Positions 4,442 through 43,491 of a stretch of 51,078 nucleotides of DNA are shown in pieces. The stretch's first letter is position 1; every line of letters begins with the position of its first letter. Origin of the DNA: a virus; IMG/VR virus record IMGVR_UViG_3300036830_000098, positions 1-51,078 of that record; one strand, 5' to 3'. Made by a program: the position numbers and the translations under genes. Below the pieces are notes generated by a model, which saw only the letters and a list, made by a program, of their open reading frames with translations, ran no database searches and was not told the origin of the DNA.

Positions 4442-4491
4442 ACGGTTGACGCCGGATAGTCATACAGTACAGTTGTGTACAGGTCAACCGT
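4442..4491 (-). promoter_or_regulatory. Promoter and 9-bp inverted repeat upstream of the RHH gene
   Basis: On the minus strand TTGACC (4487-4482) is followed after 17 bp by TATGAC (4464-4459). The region is bracketed by inverted arms ACGGTTGAC (4442-4450) and GTCAACCGT (4483-4491), the right arm overlapping the -35 box and the terminase stop codon. This fits a repressor-controlled promoter for the RHH/membrane-peptide pair. Confidence 0.5.
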
Positions 4492-6025
4492 CTACGGCCA
4501 TAGAAATCGCGCAGCAATCCCACCTGTCCGGCGAGCGGCCCAGTACGGCGCGTACTTTCTCTTTCAAAGTCATGAAAAGCCGTGCGTTTTCGTCACGACG
4601 ACATCCAGTTTGTCCCCATTTGTAAGCTGCCGCCTCTTCCTGTGCCAGTTTGTCGTTCGGCATCGATACGTTGCCTTGGAGCCAGCGCAGCAACTTGTCG
4701 TGCAGCTCGGCGCGGCGGTTGCCGTACATGACCGAGTTATTCGCGCCGTGGCTGAATACCACGGGCACGATCTTTTCATCACCAAGAGTGCGCATGCGCA
4801 GGCGGCAACCTGCTATCAGGTCGCGCCCATAACCGCCTGTGGCGTCAATAAGTATAGCGTCCATATCGAAACGCTTGAACGTCGCTACCAGCCAATCCGA
4901 TGCTACATTACCGTCCCGGCTCGCCAGCTCGCCCCATACGCGGGCGCCGATCGCGGAACCTTGCCGGTCGCACACAAAAGGCTTGTCCTGGCCGTCGCCA
5001 GCCGGATCGACACAAAGCAGCTTCAAAGCGCCCGCGGACGGCGCAGCTTTGTTCGCCATCGCGGCGGCCACGATAGACGCGGGGTAGAAGTCCAGCGTGC
5101 TATCGGCCATGAAGCATTCACTGTACACGGCGGGATACTCTTGCCGCGTCAGTCTGTGGATTGTCTCAGGCTGGCCGCCGTTCATTGTCGCAATGGTGTA
5201 GTTCTGCAACCAGAACCAATAAAGTTGTTCGGGGTCCAGCCCGTGCATTCGACCGTAGTCCGTGAAGTCCTTCGGCGCGTGCCAGTTGGGTGGGACCGCT
5301 GTGCGGTATTCCGGCATGATGGCCCACGGCAGGAAATGAATGCGCCACGGTCCCTTGTTTTGCTGGCGATTGGCTTCCTCGCACATACTAAAGAACATGC
5401 CGGACTGTCCGTTGCCGGTGCTCTCCATTGCGATCTCAGTACCGGGTAGGTTTTGCACGGTTTGCAGCAAGCCCGAAGACAAGTCTTCCGTGCTGTCGAA
5501 AAATGCGGCTTCCGACAAATGCAGCAAATGAAAATCGTCCGAACGCCCAATATCGCCGCCATCGGCCGATGCGACCTTGTACAGCGATTCCAACTTGTCG
5601 AATATCAGCTCTCGCGCGTTCGACCCGCCAAGATGCGGACGAATCGACTGCGGTAGCTCTTCGTAAAAATGCTTCACTTCGCGATGCAAATTAGTCGCGC
5701 TGTCTGTCCGGTGCGCTACAACTTGTGCGCGGCGCCCCGTTTCCGTGGCCGTGTGGTGGAAGTACCGGCCGCTTATATAGGTGCTGACGCCCATACGGCG
5801 AGCCTTGGGGATTAGCGCCCGCACGGTTCCGAATACTTCGCGCTCGCGTTCAATGCGGGCGTGCAGAAGTTTCTGAGCGTTGTTGAGAATAAAAGGAATG
5901 CGCTCGCCGCCTGATCGGGGACGCACGCGCAAGAACTTTTCCCGGTAATAGTCGAAATTGCGCAACTTTGTCCGAACAGACTCTCTAGCCTGCGTTGACG
6001 ATTCGGGTTGCCACGGGAAGTTCAA
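4484..6025 (-). CDS. terL: Terminase large subunit
   Basis: 513-residue packaging motor. The ATPase part has a deviant Walker A at 73-82 (Pro-Lys-Ala-Arg-Arg-Met-Gly-Val-Ser-Thr) and Walker B with catalytic Glu at 167-175 (Leu-Leu-His-Leu-Ser-Glu-Ala-Ala-Phe). The nuclease part shows RNase H-type acidic residues Asp340 (Cys-Val-Asp-Pro), Asp394 (Leu-Ile-Asp-Ala-Thr-Gly) and Asp503 (Asp-Arg-Trp-Asp). It cuts concatemeric DNA and drives it through the portal. The start is TTG at 6025, the only in-frame start, with a weak ribosome site. This puts Asn-Phe-Pro-Trp at residues 2-5, one copy of the terminal FPW motif. No obvious small terminase adjoins it. Confidence 0.9.
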   Translation of the reverse strand: MNFPWQPESSTQARESVRTKLRNFDYYREKFLRVRPRSGGERIPFILNNAQKLLHARIEREREVFGTVRALIPKARRMGVSTYISGRYFHHTATETGRRAQVVAHRTDSATNLHREVKHFYEELPQSIRPHLGGSNARELIFDKLESLYKVASADGGDIGRSDDFHLLHLSEAAFFDSTEDLSSGLLQTVQNLPGTEIAMESTGNGQSGMFFSMCEEANRQQNKGPWRIHFLPWAIMPEYRTAVPPNWHAPKDFTDYGRMHGLDPEQLYWFWLQNYTIATMNGGQPETIHRLTRQEYPAVYSECFMADSTLDFYPASIVAAAMANKAAPSAGALKLLCVDPAGDGQDKPFVCDRQGSAIGARVWGELASRDGNVASDWLVATFKRFDMDAILIDATGGYGRDLIAGCRLRMRTLGDEKIVPVVFSHGANNSVMYGNRRAELHDKLLRWLQGNVSMPNDKLAQEEAAAYKWGQTGCRRDENARLFMTLKEKVRAVLGRSPDRWDCCAISMAVDG

Positions 6026-21171: not shown

Positions 21172-21480
21172 CTAATCCTTAAGATAGTCCTCCAGACTTA
21201 ATCCGATCGTAGCTTCGGCCTTCGGCGTCCATGTGTTCGTTTCTCGGCGCATGGCTGCGCGCACGACGCCGGTCACGCCGCTGTCACGCGCACGCTCGAA
21301 CAGCAATATCTCGCCTTCGGCGAGCGCCTTATCTACTTCGGGATCGTCTTTCACGCTCGACCACGAAATGCCGGCCGCACGCGCCACCAATTCCGGCGGC
21401 ACGCCATCGCGCAACCGCTCCAGCATCGTTTCGTGCGGCGTTTTTGGCGCGGGTAGTTGCGTGAAAGTCCACGGGAACAC
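21172..21480 (-). CDS. Small HTH-like protein with N-terminal FPW (small terminase candidate)
   Basis: 102 residues from GTG 21480, eight bp after the internal-protein stop. Phe-Pro-Trp follows the start directly, as in the large terminase. Residues about 30-55 look like a helix-turn-helix (Glu-Leu-Val-Ala-Arg-Ala-Ala-Gly-Ile-Ser-Trp-Ser-Ser-Val-Lys-Asp-Asp-Pro), followed by helical Ala/Glu-rich sequence and an end Leu-Glu-Asp-Tyr-Leu-Lys-Asp. This order (HTH, then oligomerisation helices) is that of small terminases. No other candidate is visible in the genome. The assignment is tentative; it could be another DNA-binding regulator. Confidence 0.55.
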   Translation of the reverse strand: MFPWTFTQLPAPKTPHETMLERLRDGVPPELVARAAGISWSSVKDDPEVDKALAEGEILLFERARDSGVTGVVRAAMRRETNTWTPKAEATIGLSLEDYLKD

Positions 21481-29636: not shown

Positions 29637-30011
29637 ATGCGCGACCGCTCCGAATGGATACGCGGTGAAACCGGGCCACAGAAAATCGGCACCAGGAGTT
29701 ACAAGCGGCTCACTGAGTTTTCGCGACCATGCGCGACGTGCAAGCAACCGTTCTCGATCTTCGTCACTGAGAAGATTGCCGAGGGGTTGGCCGATTCCAA
29801 TAATTTCGGTCTGAGGAATTGCGAGGTACACCGACGCGGCGCCGCGCCCATCGATAGCGAAGAACTCGAATCGCTACGTACAAAGGACCGCGTTATGGCC
29901 GATGAATTGTCGGGCCTCTATGCGACGATCCGCGATTTGAAAGAACGGTTGGCGAAAGCTGAAGCGCGTCCAGCGCCAAAAGGCTTGACGTTTCCTTGGG
30001 GCCAGCGTTAA
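29637..30011 (+). CDS. Cys-containing coiled-coil protein with C-terminal FPW
   Basis: 124 residues. It has Cys-Ala-Thr-Cys and, 28 residues on, Cys-Glu-Val-His: a possible C3H zinc site. Then follows a coiled coil (about 75-108) and a Pro/Ala linker into the end Thr-Phe-Pro-Trp-Gly-Gln-Arg. The terminal Phe-Pro-Trp after a linker is the same short motif found at the ends of the primase-helicase, methyltransferase and others. Unknown function; the tail looks like a docking peptide. Confidence 0.7.
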   Translation: MRDRSEWIRGETGPQKIGTRSYKRLTEFSRPCATCKQPFSIFVTEKIAEGLADSNNFGLRNCEVHRRGAAPIDSEELESLRTKDRVMADELSGLYATIRDLKERLAKAEARPAPKGLTFPWGQR

Positions 30012-30048
30012 AAGAAAAACCCGCCCCGGCGCTGGACACCGGGACGGG
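30011..30048 (-). terminator. Intrinsic terminator on the minus strand (antisense)
   Basis: On the minus strand CCCGTCCCGG (30048-30039), nine-base loop, CCGGGGCGGG (30029-30020), then TTTTTCTTTT. The stem pairs fully as RNA only on the minus strand (one G-U pair); on the plus strand one pair becomes C-A and no T-run follows. All genes here are on the plus strand, so it would stop antisense transcription. Confidence 0.55.
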
Positions 30049-30079
30049 CTAACGATGCACACCCAGGCTCGGGGCCTGA

Positions 30080-32137
30080 ATGCCGCCATTTCCAGATAGC
30101 ATCCAATCGTTCTGGGTACAAGCCCAGGCCCGGGGACTGTTCCCGCTCGCCATAGCACGCGGGAGCAAGGCCCCGATCGGCGAAGGCTGGAACGTATGGA
30201 CACATCCTATCGCTCATCCGGGTGCCGGCGCTGTTGGGCTGCGCTGCGGCGACGGCGGATTATCGGCGTTTGATTGCGATCATTCCGACCCGGTGATGGC
30301 GCAACGCCTGCTGGGTGCATTCCGTTCCGTGCTGGGTCCGGATATTCCGGTACGCTGGGGCCGCGAACCGCGTTTTCTGATTCCTTATTTTCTTACCGAT
30401 GCGCCCGTACAGGGCCGTACATTCTCATTCCCGGACGGCCAAAAATTGCAACTCATGGGCGGTCAGTTCATTGCCTTTGGCGAGCACAAAGATACAAAAC
30501 AACCCTACCGCTGGGAAAATTGGGGGGTTGACTGGCCGCGAATAACGACGGCGCAGCTCCAGCAAATACTGACCGAAGTGCCGTTAAAAGCCGGGACCTC
30601 ATTGCGGTTTTCGGCCGAACATGAAACCGCCAGCGTCGATGAGCTAAAGTACGCCGCGCCGCAGACGCAAGATGAATGGCAAGCCGGCCGCGACGCCGCG
30701 ATGCGCTATCTAGGGCTGCTCAAGCATGAACTCATGGGCAGGACGGAGGGGCGCGGCTCGACCATTTTCGCAATCGTCGGCGTGCTGAAATTTGCCGAAC
30801 GTAACGGCATGTGCACACGGCGCGAGATCGAGGACGCCATAACCGACGCCGGGCACAGCCTGGATGAAGGGCTCGGCGGTCGCACGCTCGGCCAGGAAAT
30901 CCAGCGCCAGGACGAACTGCCGGTGCTGCGCGGTAACCTCATCATGCAAGCGATCATGTCACGCCGCACGATTCTGCAAGGGCTGGCCGACGCGCAGAAA
31001 ACGCCCGCGCTGGCGGCGCGCACGGGTTTTGAAATCTCATTGGAGGACCACACTAACGAGCTGCCTTGGCTGCTTTACCAGCGCATTCTATGTGGCGAGG
31101 TACATTTTTTCACCGGGCATAGCGGCTCGGGAAAATCAACCGTCATCACTGACATGGCTATCAACTACCTTAAAGGAACTGCCTGGCTTGATGCCGACAT
31201 CGAGAAAGCAAACGGTCATGTTTTGTGGATCGCGTCCGAAGATGATTATGGCACGGAACGGCGCGTGCGGCATTTACTCAGACAGGAATCGGACGCGCGC
31301 AATCTGGCATCGCGCTTTCACTTAATCCGCGGTATCAACGAACCGATGGCGTTCGAACAGCAATGTGTCGCGCAGACTCAGGCGATGGCCGCAATGGGCA
31401 TGCGCGTCGATATGATCGTACTCGATACGTGGGGTGCGTCGGGCTTGTGCTTTGCGGACAACGACACCGAAGCCGTGTTGAAAGCCATGTTTATCCTGAA
31501 GAACGTAGGCAAGCGCACCGCTGCCGCCGTACTGGTAACGGACCACTTGCCGCTCGGCAACGAAGAAGCATGGCAGAAAGGCAACGGCGCCAAATCAGGC
31601 AATAGTGGTTTTGTCTACCGCATCACGGCCAATCGAAAAGACATGGTATCGATCGATTGTGGCAAGGCGCGCGGCGCCCCGAAAGCGAAAAGTTTCCTTG
31701 GTCGAATCGTATCCGAAAACTACGGCAGGGACATAAAGGGCCGCACAACCACGGTTAACGTATTCAAGCGCGACCTGATGCCGTCGCAGACTGAAAAAGA
31801 ACAAAGCGTCGTTATGCGTCTGGCCGCGGTGCTGCCTGGCGTCGTTGCCGCCGGCATGGATGCCTTGCGTTCGGGCTCCATTGTCAGATTCGATAGCGTG
31901 GCCGCCGACATCGGCCATGCGGTCAAAGGCGAAGTGCCAGGCTACGTCATAACCAAGGACGCCGCGTTGAAAACATTTACCAAAGATGGCATGCAAAGCT
32001 TGCTAAACAGTGGTCATCTCCGTACAATGCATGGAGTCCCGTTTCTTGCTGTTTTCGCGCCGTCAGGATCGACGAAAGAGAGTCTGATAATTCCTTGGGC
32101 AATCGAGCCGCCAAAAGTGGAGACTTTTCCGTGGTAG
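30080..32137 (+). CDS. Primase-polymerase fused to RepA/DnaB-type helicase
   Basis: 685 residues. The N-terminal ~170 is a bifunctional primase/polymerase (PrimPol) domain: Phe-Pro-Leu-Ala near 21, Lys-Ala-Pro-Ile-Gly-Glu-Gly-Trp, and Asp65-x-Asp67 in Ala-Phe-Asp-Cys-Asp. From about 330 is a RecA-like ATPase with Walker A at 346-354 (Gly-His-Ser-Gly-Ser-Gly-Lys-Ser-Thr), Trp-Ile-Ala-Ser-Glu-Asp-Asp, and Walker B in Met-Ile-Val-Leu-Asp-Thr-Trp. It should prime and unwind at the phage fork. The protein ends Val-Glu-Thr-Phe-Pro-Trp, the FPW motif as its last three residues. Confidence 0.85.
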   Translation: MPPFPDSIQSFWVQAQARGLFPLAIARGSKAPIGEGWNVWTHPIAHPGAGAVGLRCGDGGLSAFDCDHSDPVMAQRLLGAFRSVLGPDIPVRWGREPRFLIPYFLTDAPVQGRTFSFPDGQKLQLMGGQFIAFGEHKDTKQPYRWENWGVDWPRITTAQLQQILTEVPLKAGTSLRFSAEHETASVDELKYAAPQTQDEWQAGRDAAMRYLGLLKHELMGRTEGRGSTIFAIVGVLKFAERNGMCTRREIEDAITDAGHSLDEGLGGRTLGQEIQRQDELPVLRGNLIMQAIMSRRTILQGLADAQKTPALAARTGFEISLEDHTNELPWLLYQRILCGEVHFFTGHSGSGKSTVITDMAINYLKGTAWLDADIEKANGHVLWIASEDDYGTERRVRHLLRQESDARNLASRFHLIRGINEPMAFEQQCVAQTQAMAAMGMRVDMIVLDTWGASGLCFADNDTEAVLKAMFILKNVGKRTAAAVLVTDHLPLGNEEAWQKGNGAKSGNSGFVYRITANRKDMVSIDCGKARGAPKAKSFLGRIVSENYGRDIKGRTTTVNVFKRDLMPSQTEKEQSVVMRLAAVLPGVVAAGMDALRSGSIVRFDSVAADIGHAVKGEVPGYVITKDAALKTFTKDGMQSLLNSGHLRTMHGVPFLAVFAPSGSTKESLIIPWAIEPPKVETFPW

Positions 32138-32340
32138 ACTTCCCTTGGTCCGTGCCTCCACGTTTCAAAGTCGGCGACGAAATATATTCGCATGTCGATC
32201 GCGGTCGCGTTATCGAAGTGGACGCCGTTGCTGGAATCATGCGGGTAACTTGGGACGATGGCGACGGCGGCACCATAACGTATCCGCTGGACGCAGATTA
32301 TTTCGAGACGGAGCCGCCGGAGAAAATGCCGTGGGAGTAG
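32131..32340 (+). CDS. 69-aa protein with FPW at N-terminus and MPW at C-terminus
   Basis: GTG 32131 overlaps the helicase stop, with GGAG nine bases upstream; an ATG at 32095 would add 12 residues. N-terminus Val-Asp-Phe-Pro-Trp-Ser-Val-Pro-Pro-Arg, then a small beta barrel (Phe-Lys-Val-Gly-Asp-Glu-Ile-Tyr-Ser; Gly-Arg-Val-Ile-Glu-Val; Met-Arg-Val-Thr-Trp-Asp-Asp-Gly), ending Lys-Met-Pro-Trp-Glu. The core resembles KOW/Tudor-like barrels. Two copies of the short motif in so small a protein suggest it could bridge two partners. Confidence 0.7.
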   Translation: MVDFPWSVPPRFKVGDEIYSHVDRGRVIEVDAVAGIMRVTWDDGDGGTITYPLDADYFETEPPEKMPWE

Positions 32341-32645
32341 ACCGATTCCCTTGGGAAAATCCGCCGCTGAACGACACCGTTGCAGCGTTGCAGCGCGATT
32401 TCGCTTACGCTGTGAGAACGACCTGTGTTATCGTTCACAGCAATAATCCGGCGTTCAAGGCGATGGCAAACACCGCACGCGGGCAGCTCGTACCGCGCGG
32501 CGAAGTCAAGTTCACGGACGGCACGACGGTCGAGCTGCATGACATCGGGATGTGTCAGCCGAACGTATCTGAAATGACCGTACAAGAGATCATGTCGCGC
32601 GTGTGGGAAATGGCAACGAATTTAGGTCTGGAGCTGGTAGTATGA
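32331..32645 (+). CDS. 104-aa protein with N-terminal FPW
   Basis: GTG 32331 has GGAGA seven bases upstream and overlaps the previous gene by 10 bp. N-terminus Gly-Val-Asp-Arg-Phe-Pro-Trp-Glu-Asn-Pro-Pro, then an alpha/beta region with Val-Lys-Phe-Thr-Asp-Gly-Thr-Thr-Val-Glu-Leu and a C-terminal helix. No family recognised. The stop overlaps the next ATG (ATGA), so it belongs to a tightly coupled block with the methyltransferase. Confidence 0.65.
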   Translation: MGVDRFPWENPPLNDTVAALQRDFAYAVRTTCVIVHSNNPAFKAMANTARGQLVPRGEVKFTDGTTVELHDIGMCQPNVSEMTVQEIMSRVWEMATNLGLELVV

Positions 32646-32947
32646 ATTATTGGCCGGCTTCGCTGTTCATCCGCAGTCCGTATTTGCTGCCCGCGGGCCA
32701 GTGGGAGATTGCAAACATTGGGCGCCCCGGTGCGGTAATCTCGGAAAGTACTCTTGTCGCATGCCACCAGATCGCGGAAACAACGCCGGGCAGCGGCGCG
32801 TCGCTGGTGTTGATTTGCAGCGAAGGTGCGCCCGTGCGCCGTGCATATCTGAACCACCCGACCGATGTAGAATGGACGGCGCTGGAGCGTGGCGGCTTTG
32901 TGGCGAATGGCGGCAATTTCGGTTTTGTGCTTGACGCGCTGCACTGA
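32642..32947 (+). CDS. Hypothetical 101-aa protein
   Basis: Coupled to both neighbours by ATGA overlaps. The first residues are Asn-Tyr-Trp-Pro-Ala-Ser-Leu-Phe-Ile-Arg-Ser-Pro-Tyr. The rest is a beta-rich small domain (Ile-Cys-Ser-Glu-Gly-Ala-Pro-Val-Arg-Arg-Ala-Tyr; Gly-Phe-Val-Ala-Asn-Gly-Gly-Asn-Phe-Gly-Phe-Val-Leu). No FPW here, although both flanking genes have it. Unknown function. Confidence 0.65.
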   Translation: MNYWPASLFIRSPYLLPAGQWEIANIGRPGAVISESTLVACHQIAETTPGSGASLVLICSEGAPVRRAYLNHPTDVEWTALERGGFVANGGNFGFVLDALH

Positions 32948-33522
32948 TGAGGATGCCTTGGGAGCCTCCTGTGTACGGCATGCTGCGCGCTGCGAACAAC
33001 GGCGGCGAGCGGCGTGCGAATGATTTTTACCCGTCACCACGCGAACCGGCGCAAGCACTAATCCCGAAACTGACTGGATGGCCGCGCGCTATTTGGGAGC
33101 CTGCATGCGGTGACGGTGGAATCGCGAAACCGTTTGAAGAAGCGGGCTTCCAAGTTACGGGTACGGATTTAGTCTATCGAGGCTATGGATGGGGCGGGGT
33201 GGATTTTCTTTCAACTGCGACGCGCGCAACCGACGCGCTTGTGACTAATCCACCATACGGAAAATTGGTAACGCGCTTCATAGAGCACGCACTTGATTTG
33301 GGCGTGCCCCATATCGCCATGCTTCTTAATGTCAACTTGTGGCATGCAGAACGACGTACTAAACTATGGAACAGACGCACGCCAGAAGCTATTTACGCGC
33401 TAACGTGGCGCCCAGATTGGACAGGGAGTGGCGCTCCTTATTTTAACGCGATATGGACCGTGTGGGCGCCGAAGAGCGCAGCGTTTACGCGCTACGAGCT
33501 ACTTGACTTCCCTTGGAAATAA
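32947..33522 (+). CDS. DNA N6-adenine-type methyltransferase with MPW/FPW at its two ends
   Basis: 191 residues. AdoMet motif I is Trp-Glu-Pro-Ala-Cys-Gly-Asp-Gly-Gly at 50-58, with acidic Gly-Thr-Asp-Leu at 72-75, and the catalytic Asn-Pro-Pro-Tyr at 101-104, as in amino-methyltransferases acting on adenine (or N4-cytosine). No restriction partner is visible, so it is an orphan enzyme, perhaps for protection from host restriction. It starts Arg-Met-Pro-Trp-Glu-Pro-Pro and ends Leu-Asp-Phe-Pro-Trp-Lys, carrying the short terminal motif twice. No target-recognition domain is evident. Confidence 0.8.
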   Translation: MRMPWEPPVYGMLRAANNGGERRANDFYPSPREPAQALIPKLTGWPRAIWEPACGDGGIAKPFEEAGFQVTGTDLVYRGYGWGGVDFLSTATRATDALVTNPPYGKLVTRFIEHALDLGVPHIAMLLNVNLWHAERRTKLWNRRTPEAIYALTWRPDWTGSGAPYFNAIWTVWAPKSAAFTRYELLDFPWK

Positions 33523-33819: not shown

Positions 33820-34023
33820 ATGCCAAACACCGAACCCAATGCGATGCCGCCGGCATTCGATAGCTGGGAAGACTGGCGTGGGCTTTACGCGCAGCACGTT
33901 GCCGATTTCAAAGCAACGCGAAAAAGCGCCAGTGACGTATTGCAACTCAAAATCCGGCTGCGCCGCATGGGCTACTTCGGCAAGCGGCTGGAAGATGAAA
34001 TCGAGTACGTAAAGAACGACTGA
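33820..34023 (+). CDS. Hypothetical 67-aa protein
   Basis: Begins two bases after the previous stop, and its stop overlaps the helicase ATG. Contains Phe-Asp-Ser-Trp-Glu-Asp-Trp-Arg and a basic helix (Lys-Ile-Arg-Leu-Arg-Arg-Met-Gly-Tyr). Small helical protein, possibly a helicase partner by coupling; no family recognised. Confidence 0.65.
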   Translation: MPNTEPNAMPPAFDSWEDWRGLYAQHVADFKATRKSASDVLQLKIRLRRMGYFGKRLEDEIEYVKND

Positions 34024-35648
34024 TGCACGCGCCCTATCCATTGCCGTTGTTCGTACCGCGCCCGCATCAAACCGATGGCGTCCGCGCACTCATCAATTAC
34101 GACGGGCGTTTTTCAGTTTCCGAAATCGCCGTGGCCGGCGGCAAGAGCGCTATGCTGGGAATGCTGGCGCAGCATTACAGTCAGTTCGGCCGCGTGCTTG
34201 TCGTGGCACACAATAAAGAACTGGTAAGACACAACGCTGCTGCCTGCAAGATGATAGGCGTCAACGCCGGCATTTGTTCGTCGTCCATCAGCACGAACGC
34301 ATTCGCGCGCGTTACTGTTGGCACGATCGGCAGCATCATAAACCGCGCCCACCTGTTCCGCGATTTAGTCGCCATCCTAGTTGACGAAGTTCATATGGTG
34401 CCGCCGGCCAAATCGTCGCAATATCGTAAATTGTTCGACAAGATTCCCAATACCAAAGTTCATGGTTTAACCGGGACGCCTTTCCGCGCTGATGGCACAG
34501 GCGACCTTGCGAAGACTTTCGGCCCGATCGTCTACCGTTACACGTTCTTGGATGCATTGCGCGATGGCTACGTTAAGCCGCTCGTGCCGGTGGATGCTGG
34601 CGAAGACGAAACAATCGACACCGAAGGATTGAAAACGACTGCCGGCGACTTCGATCTAGAGGACATGGCGCCGCGCGCGATCAAACTAGCGCCGAGCCAC
34701 GCTAAAACCGTCGTTGAAGTCATGCAGAAATACAAGCGGCGCCGAACGCTGGTGTTCTGCTGCAACATCGAACACGTTGACAAAATGGAATCCGCGTTGC
34801 GAAAGCTGGACGTGCGAGCTGTCGGCGTGCATTCGCGTTCGGTCACAGGTAAGCGCGATAAGGCCGTGGACGCATTCAAGGCCGGCGCTGCCGAAATCCT
34901 GGTATCGTGCATGATGTTCACTACCGGATTCGACGTGCCGGACATCGATTATATGGCGTTCTGCCGCGCAACTAAATCGGCGGTTTATTATGCCCAGGGC
35001 CTAGGCCGCGGCGCCCGCATAACGCCGTATGCGGCTAATTGTCTCGTGTCGGACTTCGGCGGCAACATCGCGCGCCACGGTACGCTTGACGCCGTAATGG
35101 CGGCGCCGGGTCGCATGTTGGAGTGCGACGAATGCGGGCAAGAATGGGAAACATGGGAGCACGGCAAGACGTGCCCAAAGTGCAAAACGTTGCATCGCAG
35201 CGCGCCGAAGTGCAAAAATTGCAACGAACGATTTGATCCGCATTATCACGGCATGCGCTGCCCGAACTGCGGCCAACAGCAGTCCGAAATAAAACAATGC
35301 GCGGCGTGCGAAGAAACCTACGCGGCGTTCCTGCACCCAATCTGCCCGTTTTGTCAGTTTGACAACACGATAACGATTTCCGCTGGCAAAGACCTGAAAA
35401 TGCGCGGCGGCGCTGGCGAAGCTGTCAGCGTGCGGAAAATGGTGGAGCTGGAGCCTTGGCAGGAGATCGTCAGCCCGCCCGTAAAAAACAGTTCTGGCGG
35501 CTGGATTTTGACGACGCGATTTACGACCGCGATCTGGCCCTACGAGACACTGCCGTCGCCGCGCTCTGTCTACCTAAAGCGATCGCCAAACGGCCGGTAT
35601 CTCGCAGCCGGGATTTACGACACGCATGGAAATGTCCATCAACGATGA
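34023..35648 (+). CDS. SF2 DEAD/DEAH-box helicase with zinc ribbons
   Basis: 541 residues. Helicase motifs in order: Q-like Arg-Pro-His-Gln near 13-16, Walker A Ala-Gly-Gly-Lys-Ser at 38-42, motif II Asp-Glu-Val-His at 121-124, motif III Thr-Gly-Thr-Pro at 150-153, a second RecA-like lobe, and motif VI Gln-Gly-Leu-Gly-Arg-Gly-Ala-Arg. The C-terminal part has a run of five CxxC pairs (about residues 363-450), giving two or more zinc ribbons. Members of this type are usual companions of DUF2800, DUF2815, family A polymerase and VRR-NUC genes in phage replication modules, all present here. Confidence 0.85.
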   Translation: MHAPYPLPLFVPRPHQTDGVRALINYDGRFSVSEIAVAGGKSAMLGMLAQHYSQFGRVLVVAHNKELVRHNAAACKMIGVNAGICSSSISTNAFARVTVGTIGSIINRAHLFRDLVAILVDEVHMVPPAKSSQYRKLFDKIPNTKVHGLTGTPFRADGTGDLAKTFGPIVYRYTFLDALRDGYVKPLVPVDAGEDETIDTEGLKTTAGDFDLEDMAPRAIKLAPSHAKTVVEVMQKYKRRRTLVFCCNIEHVDKMESALRKLDVRAVGVHSRSVTGKRDKAVDAFKAGAAEILVSCMMFTTGFDVPDIDYMAFCRATKSAVYYAQGLGRGARITPYAANCLVSDFGGNIARHGTLDAVMAAPGRMLECDECGQEWETWEHGKTCPKCKTLHRSAPKCKNCNERFDPHYHGMRCPNCGQQQSEIKQCAACEETYAAFLHPICPFCQFDNTITISAGKDLKMRGGAGEAVSVRKMVELEPWQEIVSPPVKNSSGGWILTTRFTTAIWPYETLPSPRSVYLKRSPNGRYLAAGIYDTHGNVHQR

Positions 35649-35735: not shown

Positions 35736-36164
35736 ATGAAACTCTGTTTCGACAGTATCGAGGAAGTCAAGCTTTTCGTCGCCGCTCTGAAAGGCACGCG
35801 CGGCAAGAAGGGTGAAGAGGAATCCGGTGATGCCGCCGTGCACCAAGCCCCGGCGCCGCTCATGCCGCCCCAAGCCGCCCCACAGGCTTTCCAGGCTGCC
35901 GCAGCACCGCAGTTTTCACCGCCTGCCGCGTTCCCAATCGGCCCGGGTACTGACCCTGCCGTGATGGCGCTCGTGGGCCGCATCAATACGCGCATCGACG
36001 GTGCCATTGCTTCGGGCCAGCCTGCCGACCAAGTTCTAACGTGGTTCCGCGGCCAGTGCGGCGCGGAAGCGGGCAACGCCACTATGGATCAGATCAAGGC
36101 GAATTTTCTGCCGAAGCTTTCGATGGCTGCGCTGGAAAACATCGCAAAATTGATGAACGCTTAG
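35736..36164 (+). CDS. Hypothetical protein with Pro/Ala-rich middle
   Basis: 142 residues behind GGGAG. The N-terminus Lys-Leu-Cys-Phe-Asp-Ser-Ile-Glu-Glu-Val-Lys-Leu-Phe-Val-Ala forms a small alpha/beta unit. A Pro/Ala/Gln linker (about 42-75) leads to a helical C-terminal domain ending Leu-Met-Asn-Ala. A two-domain linker protein at the head of the DUF2800/DUF2815 operon; possibly a recombination or ssDNA accessory, unproven. Confidence 0.7.
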   Translation: MKLCFDSIEEVKLFVAALKGTRGKKGEEESGDAAVHQAPAPLMPPQAAPQAFQAAAAPQFSPPAAFPIGPGTDPAVMALVGRINTRIDGAIASGQPADQVLTWFRGQCGAEAGNATMDQIKANFLPKLSMAALENIAKLMNA

Positions 36165-36175
36165 TAAGGACTGAC

Positions 36176-37159
36176 ATGGCCGGCCACGCCATCTACGCAC
36201 CTTCGTCGTCGGCAACTTGGCTGAAGTGCTCTTTCAGTGCGCGTAACAGCGTACCGGAAGCACCGAAGCCGCTGGCGACGAAGTTGGCGGCCGACGAAGG
36301 CACGCGCGGCCATGCGCTGCTAGAGGCTGCAATTTCCAAAATGGAAATGCCGGACGAAGGCGACAGCAAAGCCGAAGCAATCGCACTCGGAATGGACTTC
36401 ATCGATCAGTTAGAAGACGGCGAAATGGGCGCCGAAGTGGAAGGCGAGCTGGCCCCCGAATGCGGCGGCACGACCGATCTTTTGAACCTGCATCCGCACA
36501 TAACAACCGTTTTCGACGCGAAGTTTGGCAAGTGGGACGTGGATGCCTACCACAATACGCAAATGCTGACTTATGCGGCCATTCACCTACCGCGCACGAC
36601 AGCGGAGTGGTTCCGGCTTGTGATCTTTCAGCCGTTCGGTTTGGACGAGACGCCTTTCAAGCAATGGCTGGCACACCGTAGCGAAGTCGAGGCGCATCGC
36701 GAGCGCGTGCTTCGCGCTATCGTGGATCGAAGTGCGCCGACGCCGGGGCCGCATTGCCGCTGGTGTCGCGCATTCCAGCAGTGCCCCGCGATGGCGACCG
36801 ACGCCGGGTTTTTAATGGGCGCCATGTCGCGCGATCCGGCGACACTGACACCCGACGAACTGGTGCGCATGCTGCGCCTGATTCGCGCTCTCGGGGACGT
36901 GAAGGCGGTCTACGATGATATTTTGACGGCGAAGCTAAAGCTGGGCCACGCGGCGGCCGGCGCAACGCTGAAACCGGGACGTAGCTTCCGGGCCTGGAAT
37001 GACCAGGAACAGGCCGCCAAAGTGCTTTACGAAGCTTTTGGCCCCCGTGGGATCAAGCCGGTGTCGCCCGCGCAGGCCGAAAAACTTGGGCTGGCCGGAA
37101 AGCAGTATGCGGTTGTGGGCGCGCACAAGCCCGAAGCGGAACTCAAAGTTTTTTATTAA
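36176..37159 (+). CDS. DUF2800 family PDDEXK (Cas4/RecB-like) nuclease
   Basis: 327 residues. Begins Tyr-Ala-Pro-Ser-Ser-Ser-Ala-Thr-Trp-Leu-Lys-Cys. A nuclease-core pattern follows: Glu-Gly-Thr-Arg-Gly-His, then Thr-Val-Phe-Asp-Ala-Lys-Phe-Gly (Asp-x-Lys), Gln-Met-Leu-Thr-Tyr-Ala. A later Cys-Arg-Trp-Cys with the early Cys suggests an iron-sulphur or zinc cluster as in Cas4/AddB-type nucleases. The C-terminal ~60 residues recur as a stand-alone gene at 26277-26687. DUF2800 is usually next to DUF2815, as here, in recombination-dependent replication modules. Exonuclease is the probable activity. Confidence 0.8.
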   Translation: MAGHAIYAPSSSATWLKCSFSARNSVPEAPKPLATKLAADEGTRGHALLEAAISKMEMPDEGDSKAEAIALGMDFIDQLEDGEMGAEVEGELAPECGGTTDLLNLHPHITTVFDAKFGKWDVDAYHNTQMLTYAAIHLPRTTAEWFRLVIFQPFGLDETPFKQWLAHRSEVEAHRERVLRAIVDRSAPTPGPHCRWCRAFQQCPAMATDAGFLMGAMSRDPATLTPDELVRMLRLIRALGDVKAVYDDILTAKLKLGHAAAGATLKPGRSFRAWNDQEQAAKVLYEAFGPRGIKPVSPAQAEKLGLAGKQYAVVGAHKPEAELKVFY

Positions 37160-37367: not shown

Positions 37368-38132
37368 ATGGCAAGCAACAGACAGTATGAAGCAGCTACA
37401 GTTTTTAATGCTCGCATTGTGGATATGCGCCACCTTTGGGAGCCGTCCCGCGAGTACCAAGGCAAGCCATCCGCAAAACCGAACTACTTTGCCATGTTCA
37501 TCGTGCCAAAGACGCAGGCACAGTGGCACATGGAACCAGCACTTGCTGGCATCACTGCCGCGTGCGGCAAGCTCTACGCTACTAACCCGCACGTTATCGC
37601 ATGGCCCGTCGTTGACGGCGACATGCCAAGTCCCCAAGGCAAGACTTCCGAGTTCGCCAAGGGGCACTGGCTGTTCTCGGCATCTACGAGCAACCCGCCG
37701 AACGTCGAAATCGTGCAAGCGGGCGGCGTACTGACAAAGCTGACGCAGAAAGTCGGGGTCAAGCCGGGCGATTATGTAATGGCCGGCGTGACTGCGGCCG
37801 TGAAACAGAATGATGCCCGTGGTGTCAAGCTGTACCTCAACGCCGTGGTATTCTCCGGTCCTGGTGAAGAAATCGTATTCGCCAACTCGGTCAGCGGTGC
37901 CGAGCTGATGAAGATGGCACAACAGCAGGGCCTCCAGGTTACGGGTTTCTCCGGTGCGCCTGGCGGCTTCGGGGGTCAGGGTGGCGGGGGTTTTACGCCG
38001 CCGGCCGGAAGCTTTGCCCTTACGACGGGAAACAATGCTACTCCGGGTGCCCAGGCCCAACCTGGGTCGGCTTTCGGTGGGAATGCGACATTCCCTTCTA
38101 ACCCGCCGGCTGGTCCTTTCGGCCCGCGTTGA
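37368..38132 (+). CDS. ssb: DUF2815 single-stranded DNA-binding protein
   Basis: 254 residues behind AAAGGA. The N-terminal ~170 form an OB-like domain typical of DUF2815/T7 gp2.5-like ssDNA-binding proteins: Val-Phe-Asn-Ala-Arg-Ile, Lys-Pro-Asn-Tyr-Phe-Ala-Met-Phe-Ile-Val-Pro, Gly-His-Trp-Leu-Phe-Ser-Ala-Ser, Val-Lys-Pro-Gly-Asp-Tyr-Val, Val-Lys-Leu-Tyr-Leu-Asn-Ala-Val. The last ~80 residues are a disordered Gly/Pro/Ala tail ending Pro-Phe-Gly-Pro-Arg; the acidic C-terminal tip usual in such proteins is missing. It should coat ssDNA during replication and recombination. Last gene before a strong terminator. Confidence 0.8.
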   Translation: MASNRQYEAATVFNARIVDMRHLWEPSREYQGKPSAKPNYFAMFIVPKTQAQWHMEPALAGITAACGKLYATNPHVIAWPVVDGDMPSPQGKTSEFAKGHWLFSASTSNPPNVEIVQAGGVLTKLTQKVGVKPGDYVMAGVTAAVKQNDARGVKLYLNAVVFSGPGEEIVFANSVSGAELMKMAQQQGLQVTGFSGAPGGFGGQGGGGFTPPAGSFALTTGNNATPGAQAQPGSAFGGNATFPSNPPAGPFGPR

Positions 38133-39418: not shown

Positions 39419-40054
39419 ATGGCAAAAAAGACGAAAATCGAGCCGCAGGGCTTCTTGGTGGGATATGCGCGAGTTTCGACCCAAGATCAGAATTTGGACC
39501 TCCAACTTGATGCCCTGCGAAAAGCAGGCGTCAAAGAGGACAATCTGCACGTCGAAAAGATATCCGGCGCGGCTTCCAAGCGCCCGGCGCTCGATCTCGC
39601 CATCATGGACCTACGCGAGGGCGACACGCTGCTGGTCTGGCGGCTCGACCGCTTCGCCCGGTCCATGCGCGACCTCTACGCCAGGCTCGATCGGGTCTAT
39701 GCCAAGGGCGCGAAGTTCCGCAGCCTTACCGAGTCCTTCGACTTCGACACCTTCACGGGCAAGTTCGTCCTCGGCATCCTTGGACTGGTGGCCGAGCTGG
39801 AACGTCAGATCATCGCGCACCGCACAAAGGCGGGCATCGACACATGGAAGGCCAAGGGTAAGGGCCAGTGGGGCCGACAGGCCATTCTCAGCGAGGCCAA
39901 GGTCAAGCAGGCTGGCAAGATGCTGAACAAGGGAATGAGCGGGCCGCAGGTGGCGAAGCACTTCAAGGTTTCGACACCGACCATATATCAGCACTATGCG
40001 CTGAACCGTTCTGGCCGTGGCCTGCGGTTCATCCGTAAGACCAAACCAAAGTGA
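39419..40054 (+). CDS. Serine recombinase (resolvase/invertase family)
   Basis: 211 residues. The catalytic domain has Gly-Tyr-Ala-Arg-Val-Ser-Thr near 14-20 (nucleophile Ser), Asp-Gln-Asn-Leu-Asp-Leu-Gln-Leu-Asp-Ala-Leu, and Val-Trp-Arg-Leu-Asp-Arg-Phe-Ala-Arg-Ser near 73-82. A long helix follows, then a C-terminal helix-turn-helix (Ser-Gly-Pro-Gln-Val-Ala-Lys-His-Phe-Lys-Val-Ser-Thr-Pro-Thr-Ile-Tyr). These enzymes resolve or invert DNA between short sites. No paired site flanking an invertible segment was found, apart from the 28-bp-arm inverted repeat at its promoter. Could resolve genome multimers or mark an acquired island. Confidence 0.85.
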   Translation: MAKKTKIEPQGFLVGYARVSTQDQNLDLQLDALRKAGVKEDNLHVEKISGAASKRPALDLAIMDLREGDTLLVWRLDRFARSMRDLYARLDRVYAKGAKFRSLTESFDFDTFTGKFVLGILGLVAELERQIIAHRTKAGIDTWKAKGKGQWGRQAILSEAKVKQAGKMLNKGMSGPQVAKHFKVSTPTIYQHYALNRSGRGLRFIRKTKPK

Positions 40055-41553: not shown

Positions 41554-43491
41554 TTGCTTCGCCCTGACGACCTGCCTTGTGACCTGGAAACACGCAGCCG
41601 CGTCGATCTTAAACGCGCAGGTGCACGGCGGTATTCCGCCGACGCGAGCACGCAGATCACGACGGCGGTGTGGCGTTTTCGCGGGGTGAAGAAACGTGCT
41701 TGTACGGTGCATCCGCATTTAGGAACGCATTCGATTTATCAACTCTACGACGATATCCGGCAATGCAGCCGTTTCGTCGCGCATCATGCAAACTTCGACG
41801 TGAACGTACTCATAAAGCAAAATCCTTTTTTCACGTTGCCGCTGTCAAAAATTGATTGCACGATGGCGAGGGCGCAGGCGCTTGCGCTCCCCGGCGGACT
41901 CGACCAAGTTTGCACCGCGTTGGGTATCAAGGGCAAAGACCCGCGCGGGCGCGCACTTGTCATGGCAACATGCAAGCCGCAACGCGATGGTACTTTTAAC
42001 GAAGATACGCAGACGTTCCGCGAACTGCTCGAATACAACGACCAAGATACCGAATGTCTTATTGAGCTGGATAGCAGGCTGCCCCCGCTGTCGCCGGACG
42101 AACGGCTGATATTTGAACGAACATGGCGCAAGAACGAACTGGGGCTGCCGATCGATGTACATCTTGCCACGGCCATCGCCATGCGCCGGCAGGAGATCGA
42201 GCACCAGAGCACCGCAACACTGATGGAGCTGACCGGGAACGCGGTAACTAAACTTTCGCAACGCCAACGCATCATTGAGTGGTGCAATAGCGGCAACCGC
42301 GCTGCCGGGTTGGAGAGTACGCAAAAGCACGTCGTCGCGGAAAAACTGGCCGATGAAAACCTGCACCCCAATGTGCGAATTGTTCTTGAATTGCTGCAAT
42401 CCGAAGGCGGTTCCGCACCTTTAAAAGCGCAAGCACTGTTGGACCGGCACGTTGGCGGCTACTATAAAGACGCAACGCGGTACTTCGGGGCACGATCGGG
42501 ACGCGGCACGTCGGAAGGCGTCAACACATTCAATATCGCGCGCCCATCCGGCAAGTATGATGGGCAGGACGGGCGCCCAACAATAGACAGCGTTATCAGT
42601 GGACTAAAGCAGGGTTTTAAGTACGACAACATTGCGCTTACTGACTGTCTGCGCGGCATGATTGTCGCCCCCGAAGGCTGGATGATTTGCGATAACGACC
42701 TATCGAACGCAGAATACCGCATTGCTTTGTGGATGGCTGGCGACACCGATCGTTTGAACGTACTGGCGACGGGCGGCGATCCCTACATCTACAATGCAAT
42801 AGCGATGGGCCGCTGTCCGCCGGACTCAACTAAGCATACGCATCCGCACGAGAGGCAAAGCTATAAGTCCGTGACGCTGGGGGGCAATTATCAACTCGGT
42901 TGGAAGACATACATGGCGCATCAACGCCGCGCCGGCAACAGCATGGACGAAAACAAAGCGCGTTCCGACATTGACGGTTACCGACAGGCGAATCCGCTAC
43001 TTGTGCAGCTTTGGTATGCACTTGCTGACGCATTCAAATTTGCCATCTACGAGCTGCCGGGCCGCATTTTCCCGGCTGGCAAAGTATCTTTCCAAAAAGA
43101 CGGGCATGGCACCGTCTGGATGCTGCTGCCGTCCGGCCGCGCCGTGCCGCACTACTCCGCGCACATTACTTACGGCGGTGAGATGGCTTTCTTCCGCGGC
43201 AAGTATGGCGCTATGCTCAGGCAAAAGGCGTTTGGAGGGAGTCTTTTAGAAATCGCCTGCCAGTCCATGACGCGGGACTTAGTAACCGCCGCCGAAGCCG
43301 ATATCGAGCGCGAACTGCCGGACGTACATTTGATTTTGGATGTGTACGATTCCATACTGGCGCTTGCGCCCGCTCGCATTGCAAAGCAGCGATCCGAACA
43401 AATGCGTCAAATTATGAAACGCCCGCGTTCATGGACTTCGGGGCTGCCGCTGGATTGCGAAGGCTATGAAAGTTTAAGAATGTCCAAATGA
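41554..43491 (+). CDS. Family A DNA polymerase with 3'-5' exonuclease domain
   Basis: 645 residues, TTG start with GGAG nine bases upstream. Exonuclease motifs: Cys-Asp-Leu-Glu-Thr (Asp-x-Glu), His-His-Ala-Asn-Phe-Asp, and Tyr-Asn-Asp-Gln-Asp. Polymerase motif A is Asp-Asn-Asp-Leu-Ser-Asn-Ala-Glu-Tyr-Arg (Asp-Leu-Ser-Asn-x-Glu core), motif B Arg-Gln-Ser-Tyr-Lys-Ser-Val-Thr-Leu-Gly-Gly-Asn-Tyr. Motif C reads Val-Tyr-Asp-Ser where most members have Val-His-Asp-Glu, so the usual Glu is Ser and His is Tyr. This is the replicative polymerase of the phage, working with the PrimPol-helicase and DUF2815 protein. The HNH gene overlaps its stop. Confidence 0.9.
   Translation: MLRPDDLPCDLETRSRVDLKRAGARRYSADASTQITTAVWRFRGVKKRACTVHPHLGTHSIYQLYDDIRQCSRFVAHHANFDVNVLIKQNPFFTLPLSKIDCTMARAQALALPGGLDQVCTALGIKGKDPRGRALVMATCKPQRDGTFNEDTQTFRELLEYNDQDTECLIELDSRLPPLSPDERLIFERTWRKNELGLPIDVHLATAIAMRRQEIEHQSTATLMELTGNAVTKLSQRQRIIEWCNSGNRAAGLESTQKHVVAEKLADENLHPNVRIVLELLQSEGGSAPLKAQALLDRHVGGYYKDATRYFGARSGRGTSEGVNTFNIARPSGKYDGQDGRPTIDSVISGLKQGFKYDNIALTDCLRGMIVAPEGWMICDNDLSNAEYRIALWMAGDTDRLNVLATGGDPYIYNAIAMGRCPPDSTKHTHPHERQSYKSVTLGGNYQLGWKTYMAHQRRAGNSMDENKARSDIDGYRQANPLLVQLWYALADAFKFAIYELPGRIFPAGKVSFQKDGHGTVWMLLPSGRAVPHYSAHITYGGEMAFFRGKYGAMLRQKAFGGSLLEIACQSMTRDLVTAAEADIERELPDVHLILDVYDSILALAPARIAKQRSEQMRQIMKRPRSWTSGLPLDCEGYESLRMSK

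Follow-up and report, generated by a model that had tools for sequence, protein, structure and literature searches.

The C-terminal tip of bacterial SSB (SSB-Ct, DDDIPF) is a short hydrophobic-Pro-aromatic peptide on a flexible end that ties many DNA-metabolism proteins together. The carboxylate of its terminal Phe is bound by partners (PMC5872125). The pockets that receive it have a basic rim. In phage T7, the C-terminal tails of gp4 and gp2.5 both bind the DNA polymerase gp5. Ghosh et al. 2009 (cited in PMC9917605) addressed the role of the C-terminal Phe of gp2.5. To our knowledge, no tails of the T7 type occur on methyltransferases or terminase. The RPA-binding motif of PrimPol docks a primase-polymerase tail on a ssDNA-binding protein, and one SSB domain accepts many partners (PMC5457501). 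This motif is eukaryotic and acidic and has no Pro-Trp. The beta-sliding-clamp-binding motif is short and common to many unrelated replication and repair proteins that share one hub (PMC11139829). Its consensus has Gln before a Leu/Met-x-Phe core.

The window considered here is the whole stretch of the viral contig IMGVR_UViG_3300036830_000098 (51,078 bases). The sequence-only reading had claimed that five genes of one block, the terminase large subunit gene terL and the gene at 21172 carry Phe-Pro-Trp or Met-Pro-Trp near a terminus. All of these copies were found where they had been reported. Genes and starts were called with a simple coding-potential script, and single N-end cases may be off. 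The copies are as follows.

29991..29999, plus strand: gene 29637-30011, FPW near the C-end (GLTFPWGQR)
32126..32134, plus strand: primase-helicase gene 30080-32137, FPW as the final three residues (ends VETFPW, then stop)
32140..32148, plus strand: gene 32131-32340, FPW at the N-end (starts VDFPW)
32326..32334, plus strand: gene 32131-32340, MPW at the C-end (ends EKMPWE, then stop)
32346..32354, plus strand: gene 32331-32645, FPW at the N-end (starts VDRFPW)
32953..32961, plus strand: methyltransferase 32947-33522, possible N-end MPW, the start codon being in doubt
33508..33516, plus strand: methyltransferase 32947-33522, PHROG 799, FPW at the C-end (ends LDFPWK, then stop)
6011..6019, minus strand: terminase large subunit gene 4484-6025, FPW at the N-end (begins MNFPW)
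21469..21477, minus strand: 102-aa gene 21172-21480, FPW at the N-end (begins MFPW)

The primase-helicase contains Prim-Pol and AAA_25 domains. The product of gene 29637-30011 has a Cys-rich module and a coiled-coil-like stretch and no family match; genes 32131-32340, 32331-32645 and 21172-21480 also have no family match. The start codon of terL is TTG at 6025 on the minus strand. The gene at 21172 most likely starts with GTG at 21480 and hence begins MFPW, as in several relatives. The N-end copy of the methyltransferase, read earlier as RMPWE, requires a start at 32947, and the script preferred 32971; thus only the C-end copy is secure and this claim held in part. Two further claims held: the codons vary (TTT/TTC/ATG and CCT/CCG in the window), and no called window gene has an internal FPW or MPW, the only internal forms being LPW and IPW. 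The carriers, read earlier as sharing no fold, are non-homologous proteins. A serine recombinase/resolvase-like gene, 39419-40054, also sits within the replication block of the window.

Two samples of relatives were considered: 13 relatives of the window primase (72-78% identity), read whole, and a wider set of 33 related viral contigs with 1814 genes in 599 families, which takes in a clade with a polymerase identity of only about 59-67%. The terminal zone was defined as the first 16 or last 12 residues of a protein and covers 11% of all positions. Six of the 58 called window genes contain a terminal [FM]PW, compared to a mean of 0.15 and a maximum of 3 in 5000 within-protein shuffles. Among the 1814 genes, 64 of 66 copies of FPW, 34 of 39 of YPW and 49 of 61 of MPW are terminal, whereas LPW, GPW, DPW and EPW are mostly internal. 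About 16 of the 599 families per random draw have a terminal [FM]PW (shuffle mean 1.2, maximum 6; 200 shuffles). In the first set (14 genomes), MPW is the most enriched at C-ends among 7555 tripeptides. In seven further phage records that show homology in polymerase, portal or primase, the main ORFs contain no terminal F/M/YPW and a single terminal LPW. The terminal counts are far above the shuffled background, and chance and composition are rejected as the cause. The possibility that the background rate gives as many copies, named in advance as a refutation, is thus ruled out. The terminal [F/M/Y]PW tag is real and far stronger across the relatives than the window alone could show.

The tag is conserved on orthologues. 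The C-end of the primase-helicase is tagged in 28 of 30 orthologues if F/M/Y/LPW are counted, one of them (G008) only via a conserved internal MPW near its end; the tail is GPW or SPW in three contigs. In the alignment P684 is nearly invariant and W685 fully invariant, and the rest of the tail is variable; the tails in the window group end FPWQ, MPWQ, FPW and similar. The family of gene 29637-30011 has the C-end tag in 18 of 19 members. TerL is tagged at the N-end in 23 of 29 orthologues, a ParB-like protein in 8 of 9, and the family of 32331-32645 in 13 of 18 relatives. The family of 32131-32340 is tagged at both ends. In relatives of the 102-aa gene, FPW, GPW or NPF occupies near the same N-end place. 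The second proposed refutation, absence of the tripeptide from orthologues, therefore also failed: the tag is kept at 72-78% and lower identity. Members of the 29637-30011 family keep the coiled-coil-like stretch and the tagged tail, and the N-terminal Cys-containing module is of at least two different-looking types.

The tag also moves between genes, a point that the sequence-only reading had proposed to check: different phages of the group carry it on different, non-homologous accessory genes. Methyltransferases of at least four PHROGs (799, 954, 67, 111) end in the tag near the stop codon, each in few contigs only. Some of the tagged proteins have no known function. Where a carrier's function is known, it tends to be in DNA metabolism or packaging, and most structural proteins lack the tag. 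Tags are few in some contigs, with two in G023 and three in G024. In G025 no called gene has a tag by the strict pattern; the primase tail there is NGPWS, and MPWE is present on small ORFs that were not called.

The original definition of the tag as [F/M]PW proved too narrow, as Y, W and L also precede PW, and G or S in a few phages. WPW is found both at the primase position (KTWPWEK) and on TerL (MWPWE) in two contigs, where the primase position is held by an 836-aa gene of another cluster. In two contigs both the primase and the 102-aa gene have GPW-type ends. The residue before PW has switched at least 10 times on the polymerase tree with Pro-Trp retained. The 156 terminal copies analysed, with an [M/F/Y/W]-P-W core, comprise 73 N-end and 83 C-end copies. 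In [FMY]PW copies Trp is followed by Glu (62) or Gln (21), and by the end of the protein in only 4. Position -1 is most often Lys (28 of the 83 C-end copies), and Glu leads only at position -2 (18 copies). The consensus is likely [K/R/x]-[M/F/Y/W/L]-P-W-[E/Q], displayed on flexible protein ends. Conservation of PW under changes of the preceding residue, retention on orthologues and mobility together show selection on a short peptide. That this selection acts on the peptide and not on the DNA, as the sequence-only reading had proposed, is supported by the varying codons, the N-end copies and the constancy of PW on the tree. A DNA-level repeat or regulatory site is rejected, because the match is to the peptide, the Pro codons vary (CCG 58, CCT 47, CCA 31, CCC 11), and the DNA pattern is rare outside the tags.

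Like SSB-Ct, the tag has a hydrophobic-Pro-aromatic core. However, SSB-Ct is acidic and carried by one hub protein, whereas the phage tag is on many clients, at either end, contains Trp, and often has Lys or Arg before it. The situation in T7 is similar in that a primase-helicase C-tail has a terminal aromatic residue. In T7 a single polymerase takes the tails of several proteins, which for the phage tag is inferred only. Placement at the extreme C-end of a replicative primase-helicase is met (28 of 30 in the window group, 80 of 80 in the other group described below), but in T7 these tails are acidic with Phe as the last residue, unlike the window-group primase tails. PrimPol is analogous in having a primase-type tail docked on SSB, which for the phage tag is only proposed; the acidic stretch of the PrimPol type is absent from the window-group primase C-tails, which are short and not acidic. 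The beta-clamp motif is analogous as one short motif on many unrelated proteins, although a single hub for the phage tag is inferred. The canonical clamp motif is rejected: tag copies show no preference for Gln at positions -5 to -3, and N-end copies starting MFPW leave no room for it. The literature searched, with partial coverage, yielded no paper on an FPW motif in phages and none on a beta-clamp motif in combination with terminase. Thus the claim that no system with this tag has been described held for the motif in that literature; the idea has close relatives in SSB-Ct and in the C-tails of T7 gp4 and gp2.5.

Tag-like ends occur in other phages. Viral contigs were scanned for KMPWE followed by a stop. 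Beyond the window group the matches fall mostly into one other family, a primase-helicase of about 570 aa (PHROG 239; at least 57), and at least 10 lie in a protein about 130 aa long with the end FPWEKMPWE. All 80 fetched relatives of the PHROG 239 primase-helicase end in MPWE, LPWE or a close variant. In the contigs of this group that were read, the primase-helicase is the sole or nearly sole tagged protein, and no DNA_pol_A match was found. Other homologues have xPF tips: EDEVPF in Cellulophaga phage phi10:1, DDVPF in Tenacibaculum phage JQ, DDFPF in phage PJN03 and KEIPF in Flavobacterium phage elemoA. As homologous primase-helicases end in xMPWE or xPF at the same place, MPWE stands in for an SSB-like tip. 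This alternation is the best mechanistic clue, and it may point to a hydrophobic-Pro-aromatic tip made for a pocket; that the same pocket exists in the window group is unproven.

Three further observations were made in these contigs. The tandem tag FPWEKMPWE ends a 125-133-aa protein of unknown function in L218, L224, L225, L229, L248, L266, L282, L284, L285 and L292. In the other phage group (L295, L336 and L371-L450), the small gene directly upstream of the helicase ends xDLPF in most of the contigs whose helicase ends MPWE. In L280, the helicase ends SLDDLPF, an SSB-type tip, and an SSB-like protein ends GNGKMPWE (L280:3282-4991 and L280:7187-7741).

The fixed replication core of the window group is tag-free: five families, present in 31-33 contigs, all lack the tag.

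41554..43491, plus strand: family A-type DNA polymerase, in 33 of 33 contigs, never tagged; candidate hub
37368..38132, plus strand: Enc34/gp2.5-like ssDNA-binding protein, never xPW-tagged, with its own conserved tail ending PFGPR; candidate hub
35736..36164, plus strand: 142-aa protein, core gene near the SSB, never tagged; candidate hub or adaptor
34023..35648, plus strand: DNA helicase, PHROG 16, core gene, untagged
36176..37159, plus strand: DUF2800 exonuclease, PHROG 69, core gene, untagged

The absence of the tag from these five proteins does not make any one of them the hub. The structure model of the SSB has a confident OB core and a disordered tail and is uninformative on docking. 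The 142-aa protein has two ends linked by a Pro/Ala/Gln-rich stretch; it could not be recognised as a peptide-binding fold, as its model had a pLDDT of 67 and matched nothing in the PDB at E<=0.001. The family A polymerase as a universal hub is weakened, since a DNA_pol_A match is missing in 14 of the 15 contigs taken from the KMPWE scan, although some may be fragments. As for the host, no relative of the window primase was found in the genome contigs searched.

It is likely that the tag is a mobile short linear docking motif for one shared, untagged replisome partner. Binding of the tag, a single pocket and its location on a core protein are all inferred; there are no binding data and the hub is unidentified. 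The earlier claim of a docking tag for one hub is thus supported as an interpretation, with single-hub binding and hub identity unproven. The tag would bring the primase-helicase, DNA methyltransferases, the ParB-like protein, the terminase and several small proteins to a common partner, which would be located on replicating phage DNA. The pocket may lie on a core replication protein, the polymerase or the gp2.5-like SSB in the first place, then the helicase, the nuclease or the 142-aa protein. The polymerase and the SSB lead because of the analogies with T7 gp5 and RPA (PMC5457501). A host replisome protein is a less likely partner, but is still open. The putative pocket would probably accept a hydrophobic-Pro-aromatic tip, like the SSB-tip pockets. 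If this is true, a four-residue peptide moving between genes wires together replication, DNA modification and packaging of a mid-sized phage, and would be the phage counterpart of the PIP-box, clamp or SSB-tip networks. It would provide a sequence handle for placing unknown phage proteins in the replication machinery, and a peptide bait for the hub. A bolder reading, to which we lean rather less than to its negation, is a self-contained address system: one phage hub with a Pro-Trp pocket would gather replication, DNA modification, nuclease and packaging proteins, new genes would join by gaining the four-residue tag, and tag variants would be the alternative to the SSB tip in other phage groups.

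Docking on known pockets is one alternative. In this case the tag would truly imitate the C-terminal tip of bacterial SSB, binding the SSB-tip pockets of host or phage proteins (PriA, RecO, chi, DnaG and others). In its favour, the hydrophobic-Pro-aromatic core is common to both, xPF tips and xMPWE ends alternate on homologous phage primase-helicases, the two kinds of end in L280 are exchanged between helicase and SSB-like protein, and the 102-aa gene alternates between FPW and NPF. However, no acidic run precedes the core and Lys is the commonest preceding residue at C-ends; Trp is usually followed by Glu or Gln and is not an aromatic last residue with a free carboxylate, which the known pockets contact (PMC5872125). 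About half of the copies are N-terminal, and in the window group the tag is not carried by the SSB, the exception elsewhere being the KMPWE of L280. The xDLPF small gene beside the MPWE helicase implies that the two tips may serve different pockets. A strict SSB tip is rejected as the identity of the tag, since its defining features are not met, and mimicry as such is unlikely.

Still less probable is a signal other than docking, for instance a handle for protease, chaperone or quality control. The tag is indeed small, terminal and present on unrelated proteins, but copies are found at either end and as far as about 10 residues inside, unlike N- or C-degrons, and the bias of its known carriers to DNA metabolism and packaging, with structural proteins mostly spared, also speaks against it. 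Finally, the tag could be a by-product of ribosome sites, TGG-GAG of the C-end copies being the Shine-Dalgarno box of the next gene, or of gene overlap. Several tagged window genes do run into the gene that follows (30080/32131/32331), and GGGAG can arise within Trp-Glu codons. However, this leaves the 73 N-terminal copies and the hydrophobic residue and Pro before Trp unexplained; for 45 of the 83 C-end copies there is no gene on the same strand within 60 nt, Glu after Trp is encoded by GAA in 14 of 34 cases, and in G041, a contig of the other phage group, the next ORF is 156 nt away. It is refuted as a general cause and all but excluded otherwise. Docking on a shared partner remains the preferred reading.

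The SSBs of the window group end mostly in tails of the NPFAPR, FPQR or WPQR type. In five contigs (G005, G006, G023, G024, G025) this tail has Trp in place of Phe, and in the same five Tyr, Ser, Gly or Asn precedes PW in the primase tag. This correspondence is a hint only: G010 is an exception, having Tyr together with an SSB tail of the Phe type, and the five contigs belong to few clades. The C-end of Enc34-like SSBs (NPF[AG]PR, GFPQR or WPQR type), which follows a long disordered tail, is a second conserved tail motif, different from the tag. The core helicases mostly end in xHQ[RKV].
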